Notes under the pieces: generated by a model
What the model was told of the DNA's origin: nothing
What the model saw: the letters and a program-made list of their open reading frames with translations, nothing else
Databases searched by the model: none
Virus record (IMG/VR): IMGVR_UViG_3300022938_000001
Coordinates: 1-20,352 of that record
Length of the DNA stretch: 20,352 nt
Direction: 5' to 3' (one strand)
Origin: a virus
In this document: one piece after another, positions 2,264 through 13,336 of the stretch
How positions within the stretch are numbered: the first letter of the stretch is position 1
Layout of the letters: each line of letters opens with the position of its first letter
Program-made: the position numbers and the translations under genes

Positions 2264-2569
2264 TTAATCCTTGGGTGGGCCAAACCTCCGGACGTTCCCT
2301 GTCTCTTTCTGAGTATTCGGCACTTTTTGAAGGTGCTTTCTCAGGCTATGGGGAATATCCTCCTGCGGAAATCTTATTGTTCCCTGCCAGTGGAAAAGTT
2401 TTTCGCCCTCTTTACGAGAGATTGCTATCATAAAACTACCGGATTTTTCTGCAAGTTCAATCTGCTCGTTCATTTCGGCATAGATCTTTTTTTCTGCCGT
2501 TTGAGTTTTAACAACCATTCCTAATTTCTTACCAACTTCCTTGTTTTCAGCCTCTTTTTTCCCTTCCAT
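2264..2569 (-). CDS. Small unknown protein behind the duplicated leader
   Basis: I choose the ATG at 2567-2569 (101 residues) because AAAGGAG sits just before it. An in-frame ATG twelve codons upstream has no ribosome site and falls inside the leader hairpin. The first 45 residues are highly charged and lysine/glutamate rich. The rest has a compact-looking segment with GEKLFHWQGTIRFPQEDIP near residues 58-76. I recognise no domain. The gene ends directly against the GT9 gene, so the two are probably co-translated. It is the only cassette gene with the same 5' leader as the scaffold gene, so it may be made in large amounts or under the same control. Confidence 0.72.
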   Translation of the reverse strand: MEGKKEAENKEVGKKLGMVVKTQTAEKKIYAEMNEQIELAEKSGSFMIAISRKEGEKLFHWQGTIRFPQEDIPHSLRKHLQKVPNTQKETGNVRRFGPPKD

Positions 2570-2573
2570 TTTG

Positions 2574-2626
2574 ATTCTCCTTTCGTTGTGTAAAATAGTT
2601 GCCATGCAAATATGTTACACAACTTT
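2574..2626 (-). promoter_or_regulatory. Leader hairpin, copy 1 of a two-copy element
   Basis: On the minus strand a 9-base arm GTTGTGTAA (2615-2623) and its exact complement TTACACAAC (2585-2593) flank a 21-base loop. The element ends four bases before the Shine-Dalgarno of the 101-codon gene. The 5' arm contains the last codons and stop of the preceding gene. The same arrangement, with the same loop length and same distance to the start codon, occurs before the scaffold gene at 13025-13063. It could be an RNA hairpin governing translation or mRNA processing, or a DNA operator. Confidence 0.6.
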
Positions 2627-9212: not shown

Positions 9213-9234
9213 AGTTTTTCTCCTTTCCCTTAAA

Positions 9235-9255
9235 TAATGACTGTATCAGACATTA
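9235..9255. promoter_or_regulatory. 21-bp dyad before the 241-residue gene
   Basis: Arms TAATGACTG and CAGACATTA (plus strand) flank a central TAT, with eight of nine base pairs matching. It ends about 10 bases before the AAAGGAG of the downstream gene. It could be a repressor operator or an RNA stem with one mismatch. No second copy was seen in the window. Confidence 0.5.
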
Positions 9256-9278
9256 ATAAAGGTATGAATGAGTTATAT

Positions 9279-10760: not shown

Positions 10761-10791
10761 TAGATTTTCTCCTTGTTTTTAATAGTTTACC

Positions 10792-10804
10792 CCTCAAAAT
10801 GAGG
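10792..10804. other. Small hairpin before the beta-helix gene
   Basis: CCTCA and TGAGG flank a three-base centre. It lies between the capsid terminator and the ribosome site of the beta-helix gene. It may be a minor RNA stem; no other support. Confidence 0.25.
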
Positions 10805-10810
10805 ATACTA

Positions 10811-12208: not shown

Positions 12209-13009
12209 CTATTTAAAGATTTTATCAAGCCTTGACTTTAAAATGCCCCTGGCCTCTTTAAGGGTTTTTACCTTTTTAGTTTCAGGAGGGGTTGAGTCAG
12301 AAGAAGTGGTCATTTTCACAACTTTGGCCTTACCTTTGATATAACGTTTGATAACGTCCTGCTCGAAAGCCATGATCTTTTTAGCTGCAGACTTTGTAAT
12401 GCGCTTGATTGCAGTTTTATCTTCAAGATCGATTTCATGGATTTCGTTCTCAATACCAAGGAATTCAGTCAAATGGTTGTGATATGCTGCCGGAAGATCC
12501 TCTTGCGCCTTAATGGTTGATTTGACCGTATTAGTAAAGAAGGTAAGAGCCCTTTTATTTTCCTGAAATTTTTCTTGTTCAGCTTCTTGCTCCTTGAACT
12601 TTCTGCGCTCTTCCAGTTTTTCCTTTTTTAATCGGGCAATCGTTTCCTCTGGCGTTTCGTTATCTTCCCTTTCCTTCTCCTTATCCTCCGCCCATACCTT
12701 TTGATACCTTTTTAGAAGGGCTGAATGTTCTTTGAGCTCTTCAAGATTGGCATCGCCAACATCATCCTTGAGGGTTGCCAGTTTCGCAACAAACGTTTTA
12801 AGTTCTTCCGGTGAACTAATCTCATATTCATCAAGAAGACCTTTGATTGTTTTGATTCCTGCCTTATCATCATCTGATAGTGCGCCAGCTTTTTCTTTTC
12901 CGGCTTTGTCAATATCAGTGGTGTCCTCAACGATCTTTTCCGTTAAATCCTCGACACCAGCTTTAGTGCCGTCCTCTAATGCTGTTGTTTCTGTTCCTTC
13001 TTCTCCCAT
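12209..13009 (-). CDS. Capsid scaffolding protein
   Basis: I use the ATG at 13007-13009 because GGGAGG precedes it; upstream in-frame ATGs have no ribosome site and fall in the leader element. The 266-residue product is very charged and mostly helical. It has an acidic N-terminal third (residues 1-110), a long central coiled coil (about 125-175, rich in Lys/Glu/Arg), and a basic C-terminal helix (TLKEARGILKSRLDKIFK). This is the usual plan of phage scaffolds, whose basic end binds capsid protein. It lies immediately before the capsid gene, 26 bases apart. No protease domain is visible. Confidence 0.82.
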   Translation of the reverse strand: MGEEGTETTALEDGTKAGVEDLTEKIVEDTTDIDKAGKEKAGALSDDDKAGIKTIKGLLDEYEISSPEELKTFVAKLATLKDDVGDANLEELKEHSALLKRYQKVWAEDKEKEREDNETPEETIARLKKEKLEERRKFKEQEAEQEKFQENKRALTFFTNTVKSTIKAQEDLPAAYHNHLTEFLGIENEIHEIDLEDKTAIKRITKSAAKKIMAFEQDVIKRYIKGKAKVVKMTTSSDSTPPETKKVKTLKEARGILKSRLDKIFK

Positions 13010-13013
13010 GATG

Positions 13014-13066
13014 TTCCTCCCTTCGTCGTGCAAAATAGTCATAATATGAATATGTTGCATAACTGT
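13014..13066 (-). promoter_or_regulatory. Leader hairpin, copy 2 of the two-copy element
   Basis: Minus-strand arms GTTATGCAA (13055-13063) and TTGCACGAC (13025-13033) flank a 21-base loop. Compared with the copy at 2585-2623, one T-A pair has become C-G, one pair is now a wobble and one is a mismatch. Loop ends CATATT and ACTATT are shared, and in both copies 15 bases separate the element from ATG. Confidence 0.6.
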
Positions 13067-13080
13067 TGTTATTAATAAAA

Positions 13081-13114
13081 AAGGCCACGCTGGGTTTTAT
13101 CCCTGCATGGCCTT
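13081..13114 (-). terminator. Rho-independent terminator between Com-like gene and scaffold
   Basis: On the minus strand AAGGCCATGC pairs with GCGTGGCCTT (ten pairs, one G-T), with an inner GGG/CCC stem and AT-rich loop, followed by a T-rich run. It lies just after the Com-like gene, so the scaffold and capsid genes likely need their own promoter or read-through. Confidence 0.85.
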
Positions 13115-13142: not shown

Positions 13143-13307
13143 TTATTTTACTACGGCTATTTTCTTGCCGTAAATCAACGTAAACGGAACTATTCGCTCT
13201 TTAAACTTGTTGAATTGTTTACACTTTCGACACTTTATTTCAATGTCTATCTCCCCTGCCGCTTTTAAAAGAAATGTACCACATTTTTTACATTTGATTT
13301 TAGTCAT
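13143..13307 (-). CDS. Com-like zinc-ribbon protein, 54 residues
   Basis: The frame from ATG 13305-13307 to TAA 13143-13145 encodes 54 residues with two CxxC pairs, Cys6/Cys9 and Cys26/Cys29, in the setting IKCKKCGTFLLKA and IEIKCRKCKQFNKF. This matches the small zinc-binding Com family, whose phage Mu member binds mRNA and activates mom translation; here no mom-like gene is visible. The lysine-rich tail could bind nucleic acid. No clear ribosome site precedes it; GTTGACAAC, a small palindrome, lies about 13-21 bases upstream. It starts 29 bases after the portal stop and is closed by a strong terminator. It may regulate neighbouring mRNAs. Confidence 0.72.
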   Translation of the reverse strand: MTKIKCKKCGTFLLKAAGEIDIEIKCRKCKQFNKFKERIVPFTLIYGKKIAVVK

Positions 13308-13336
13308 ATATTTATAGGGTTGTCAACTGTTTTTGA

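Follow-up and report, generated by a model that had tools for sequence, protein, structure and literature searches.

A probable RNA leader hairpin upstream of the scaffold gene in a family of uncultivated tailed phages, with a second copy in a sugar cassette

The window analysed here corresponds to a complete virus record in IMG/VR, 20,352 nt in length, and carries two copies of a 39-nt hairpin, one upstream of the gene in the scaffold position and the other upstream of a small gene in a sugar cassette. The hairpin has a paired structure that covaries, a position just ahead of the Shine-Dalgarno sequence, a restriction to particular genes and a signal that is stronger on the sense strand. Taken together, these properties indicate that the element is probably a cis-acting RNA leader hairpin that acts post-transcriptionally on the output of the downstream cistron, and that it has been kept across a large family of uncultivated tailed phages and copied in the clade of the window.

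The genes of the window lie on the minus strand and comprise terminase, portal, the scaffold-position gene, major capsid, and head and tail genes, followed by a sugar cassette that contains genes for a methyltransferase, two GT9-like proteins and a sulfotransferase-like protein. The portal gene gave a weak match to P22_portal and the major capsid corresponds to phrog_14242. The scaffold protein had no Pfam or PHROG match and is named for its position between portal and major capsid and its coiled composition. The two hairpin copies and the genes that follow them are:

13025 to 13063, minus strand: hairpin copy 1, leader of the scaffold gene (covariance model score 60.3 bits)
12209 to 13009, minus strand: scaffold gene, 266 aa, product starting MGEEGTETT
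2585 to 2623, minus strand: hairpin copy 2, heading the small unknown gene that sits between the two GT9 genes (covariance model score 56.4 bits)
2264 to 2569, minus strand: small gene, 101 aa, matching phrog_4240 (unknown function; E 0.007)

A preliminary description had reported two 39-nt sites with inverted arms, each 15 bases from an ATG, and both were recovered as described, on the coding (minus) strand. The spacers between element and ATG, GAAAGGAGAATCAAA and GAAGGGAGGAACATC, are exactly 15 nt long, and GAA(A/G)GGAG follows directly 3' of each hairpin as the Shine-Dalgarno region, which agrees with the claim that the element lies against the Shine-Dalgarno. All 9 positions of the outer stem are paired in copy 2; in copy 1, seven of them form Watson-Crick pairs and the other two are U.G and A.C. 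The earlier account of a T-A to C-G swap, one wobble and one mismatch between the copies is confirmed. What had been regarded as a 21-base loop itself folds into AUA/UAU pairs, a 4-bp inner stem and a 3-nt loop, giving an overall build of a 9-position outer stem, a 1x1 C.U mismatch, AUA/UAU, a U.C mismatch, the 4-bp stem and the 3-nt loop (GUUAUGCAA-C-AUA-U-UCAU-AUU-AUGA-C-UAU-U-UUGCACGAC). The inner stem holds three further compensatory differences between the copies (TCAT..ATGA vs TTGC..GCAA), and both copies fold into the same shape with RNA folding z-scores of -3.9 and -3.7. The search of the window for the arm pattern that had been proposed, run with up to three mismatches, returned only the two known sites on both strands (4 matches; 0.27 expected, and 0 of 100 shuffles reached 4).

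Nine copies of the element from six viral contigs of the close clade (the window, L003, L004, L005, L007 and L011/L012) were aligned. In all five relatives the element precedes the scaffold gene, and L003 and L011 also have it before their small-gene homologue; the whole records of these two, both long enough for the comparison, contain exactly two copies each, before the same two genes. Standard pairs fill 91% of the pair cells of the alignment, and both-sided changes occur at 8 of 16 pairs, compared to 2.4 +/- 1.1 in shuffles (0 of 500 as high) and at most 3 in slid structures, so that compensatory changes are commoner than chance in these homologous leaders, as had been anticipated. A covariance model located a tenth copy, not used in the alignment, before the scaffold gene of L023 (39.5 bits, E 1.3e-6) and no further new sites in a scan of 1.3 Mb, and it scored the sense over the antisense strand by about 20 bits or more. 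Within the close clade the core CATATTC...GACTAT is strongly conserved while the arms drift, and the stems contain 11 G.U against 5 A.C. The more distant L039 keeps the gene order and gave no match to the hairpin covariance model.

An IMG/VR search with the exact core plus arms and a DNA similarity search of known phages returned no match, and relatives were therefore sought through the capsid, scaffold, small-protein and GT9 sequences. Capsid homology provided 15 contigs at first and 80 with a family alignment, and scaffold homology provided 20 loci; a search of genome_contigs found no relative and, for this reason, no host was inferred. In the distant contigs (capsid identity about 45-70%) the sequence of the element is unrecognisable, and in most of them a similar hairpin ends 0 to 14 nt before the scaffold Shine-Dalgarno. 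Folding z-scores were computed on the 55 nt before the Shine-Dalgarno, with gene starts picked automatically, and the controls were other leaders whose intergenic space measured 45 nt or more. The scaffold leaders of 68 contigs showed a median z of -2.8, 79% of them falling below -2, whereas the 312 other leaders had a median of -0.43 (p 3e-16; this and the other p values are optimistic, as the contigs share ancestry and the tests are not fully independent). About a fifth of the contigs have no significant hairpin before the scaffold gene, and the leaders of the homologues of portal (median z 0.13), of a 284-aa gene (-0.5) and of an 827-aa gene (0.2) show no signal. Of 67 scaffold leaders, 54 had a lower z on the sense than on the antisense strand (p 8e-8), the absolute sense and antisense folding energies (p 0.36) being uninformative because of base composition, and stems outside the close clade contain 35 G.U against 18 A.C (p 0.027). 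Both the strand asymmetry in z-score and the excess of G.U speak for a sense-strand RNA rather than a DNA dyad. In Shocker, a cultivated distant relative that is a Microbacterium phage, a terminator precedes the scaffold-position gene and no clear matching hairpin was seen.

Three further features lie between the portal gene and copy 1:

13075 to 13114, minus strand: intrinsic-terminator-like hairpin with T run, recognised on visual inspection and from its fold, with its end about 10 nt upstream of copy 1
13143 to 13307, minus strand: 54-aa ORF encoding a Com-like zinc-ribbon protein, between portal and scaffold (PF10122, below the cut-off)
13297 to 13326, minus strand: sigma-70-like promoter TTGACA-18-TAAAAT, 11/12 match, just after the portal gene

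The consensus terminator scan did not list the hairpin at 13075 to 13114; the window and most terminator-bearing relatives have an intrinsic terminator whose end lies 10 to 20 nt upstream of the scaffold hairpin. The TTGACA box after the portal gene is also kept in L003, L005, L007 and L011. L005 has no terminator between the hairpin and a TTGACA-16-CAATAT promoter situated about 45 nt upstream of it, and the hairpin would therefore be in the scaffold mRNA leader of this phage. The ATG of the Com-like ORF overlaps the -10 region of the TTGACA promoter. Several folds paired the T run of the terminator with the Shine-Dalgarno region; this pairing is absent before copy 2 and was judged incidental. 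Upstream of copy 2, no terminator and no promoter better than chance was found. The stop codon of the preceding 186-aa ORF falls within the 5' arm of copy 2, which places this copy between cistrons in the window.

Three close-clade contigs reach the region of the small gene (the window, L003 and L011), and in each of them copy 2 precedes this gene, which lies between two GT9 genes; homologues of the small gene occupy the same place in L003, L011 and L039. The AlphaFold model of the small protein had a mean pLDDT of 51.7, too poor for a structure search. The proposal that the hairpin reflects shared control of assembly and sugar modification is conjectural, as the second target is a small uncharacterised protein between two GT9 genes; coordinated control of the two processes is nonetheless possible, given the placement of copy 2 before this conserved gene in all three contigs. 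The 186-aa ORF (3175-2615, minus strand), without a Pfam match, is inserted between the GT9 gene and the small gene in the window only. The sulfotransferase-like gene (1481-846, minus strand) matches Sulfotransfer_3 with an E value of 1.5e-4, below the cut-off.

Structured leaders also occur elsewhere in the window:

9228 to 9262, minus strand: third imperfect hairpin with pyrimidine mismatches, in the leader of a 241-aa gene, followed by GAAAGGAG and 15 nt from the ATG
9212 to 8487, minus strand: the 241-aa gene led by this third hairpin
10782 to 10810, minus strand: separate element TAGTATCC-stem-GGGGTAAACTAT, conserved in relatives, in the leader of the first gene after major capsid

The leaders of the 241-aa gene homologues in 37 contigs have a median z of -2.55, with 73% below -2. 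The earlier statement that only the scaffold gene and the small gene carry the hairpin accordingly holds for the sequence motif, found before the same two genes in the testable relatives, and fails for the architecture, since the leader of the 241-aa gene is also a hairpin. The post-capsid element has the form AGTATCC-variable stem-GGGGnnAACTAT and lies just before the Shine-Dalgarno in about 35-40 viral contigs. Its flanks are nearly invariant and its stem covaries, one pair being UA in 11, CG in 10, GC in 3 and AU in 1 (alignment A7, 25 contigs), and the window and five relatives gave no Rfam match at this element. It may be a stronger candidate for an RNA family than the scaffold hairpin. 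Unusual low-complexity DNA was observed at the start of contig L008 (1-1300), in the form of an ACT/AGT repeat-rich stretch (ACTACTAGTATTATT...).

From these comparisons we infer that the hairpin is functional in the transcript, that both copies are transcribed, and that an acting factor raises or lowers the output of the downstream gene. The hairpin would be transcribed together with its gene and end a few nt before the Shine-Dalgarno; in the clade of the window it would have been duplicated, or recruited, in front of the small sugar-cassette gene. A double-strand-RNA-binding factor, either of the host RNase III type or a phage protein, could bind or cut the intercistronic hairpin, and this would create or protect the 5' end of the scaffold-capsid mRNA and position the ribosome. 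Such processing or 5'-end protection is our tentative first choice of mode, slightly above a protein-bound translational operator. A general role in mRNA processing or as a leader fits the presence of similar hairpin leaders before other genes, such as the 241-aa gene. The intercistronic RNase III sites of phage T7 are imperfect hairpins located just upstream of genes in polycistronic mRNA, variable in sequence and several per genome. The hairpin described here is likewise imperfect, intercistronic, just upstream of a gene and variable in sequence, but it is shorter, is concentrated at the scaffold and a few other genes and often comes right after an intrinsic terminator, and its cleavage is hypothetical. 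Its stem of 17-18 paired positions, mismatches included, appears short for a classic two-turn RNase III substrate (20 bp or more). With one core shared by two unrelated genes and similar hairpins ahead of a third, the product of each gene is unlikely to be the ligand; a host RNase, the ribosome or a phage protein common to these leaders would fit better as the acting factor. A specific binder, rather than a hairpin of generic type, is suggested by the strong conservation of the core in the close clade and by the family-wide enrichment in C.U mismatches (C.U/U.C in 27 of 70 single mismatches outside the close clade, or 39%, vs 16% in shuffled controls, p 1e-5).

A possible but less favoured alternative to processing is a translational operator, in which a phage protein (the scaffold or another conserved one) would bind the hairpin, block the adjacent ribosome-binding site and repress scaffold synthesis, the small gene having joined this control by acquiring a copy. 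The contact with the Shine-Dalgarno at a constant 15-nt spacing, the conservation of the core amid drifting arms and the mismatch excess outside the close clade are all consistent with such an operator. The P22 scaffold is subject to post-transcriptional autoregulation and provides a precedent. In P22 (NC_002371), however, only 13 nt separate the portal and scaffold genes and no comparable leader is present. The gp43 protein of T4 acts as a repressor of its own mRNA by way of a hairpin operator close to the start (PMC3014915), and the present element resembles this operator and those bound by RNA-phage coat proteins in being a small hairpin next to the ribosome-binding site whose stem varies while its core is kept. 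It differs from them in that the loop is not conserved (AUU, AUG, AUA, ACA, CAUGA and CAAGU were all found), the start signals lie outside the hairpin, and two unrelated genes share it, so that the gene product alone cannot be the ligand.

The repressor-bound dyad raised in the preliminary description, or a dyad recognised by a phage RNA polymerase as a promoter, is improbable. The element is a long near-palindrome with a conserved ACTAT core, and its location immediately past a terminator is one at which a promoter might be required. Both half-sites differ between the two copies with pairing kept, however, the wider family keeps the hairpin in unrelated sequence, the sense-strand signal is the stronger, and there are only two copies per contig. 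A mechanism like that of phage Mu, where Com, bound to a hairpin ahead of mom, activates translation (PMC6483171), appears about as improbable; here the zinc-ribbon protein encoded upstream would bind the hairpin and switch on translation. The Com-like ORF lies between the promoter region and the terminator in the window, L004, L007 and L011/L012, and the L007 protein scores above the PF10122 cut-off, whereas that of the window falls below it. A pattern scan of all contigs found no such ORF near the hairpin in L003 or L005, nor in any hairpin-bearing contig outside the clade; the ORF therefore cannot be a general partner and was dropped in that role. The hairpin shares with com/mom its place upstream of a late gene and the nearby ORF in part of the clade, but its loops lack the Com motif CC(N)2-3GAG, no inhibitory stem covers the start codon, and most relatives lack the ORF. 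A functionless duplication or chance palindrome, which would account for the core shared by the two copies, is refuted by covariation, the double changes, the out-of-sample copy and the family-wide folding signal bearing out the earlier argument that the paired structure is selected.

The manA and wcaG motifs are structured RNA leaders of phages linked to sugar metabolism genes (PMC2864571), and the hairpin is similarly a structured leader in phage and metagenome contigs; unlike them, it matches neither these nor any other Rfam family, whether at the gathering thresholds or at E values up to 5 around both copies. A literature search on phage scaffold leaders found nothing relevant. Leader hairpins are known as a type, and as far as was searched, this family, its link to the scaffold gene and its duplication into a cargo cassette are undescribed in the literature. 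A broader scheme, which we regard as unlikely, is that one family-wide RNA-binding factor reads a set of structured leaders and fixes head-assembly stoichiometry, with one clade having wired in a cargo gene by copying the hairpin; the set would comprise the C.U-mismatch hairpins of the scaffold gene, the 241-aa gene and the clade's small gene together with the AGTATCC...GGGGnnAACTAT element. Phages must make scaffold and capsid protein in a set ratio, and an RNA-level mechanism for fixing it is known in few systems. A covarying scaffold leader in dozens of uncultivated phages, absent from Rfam, is a concrete and testable cis element, and the AGTATCC element close by adds another candidate RNA family to this operon. 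The second copy of the hairpin in the sugar cassette suggests that such leaders are movable and can recruit cargo genes into late expression.
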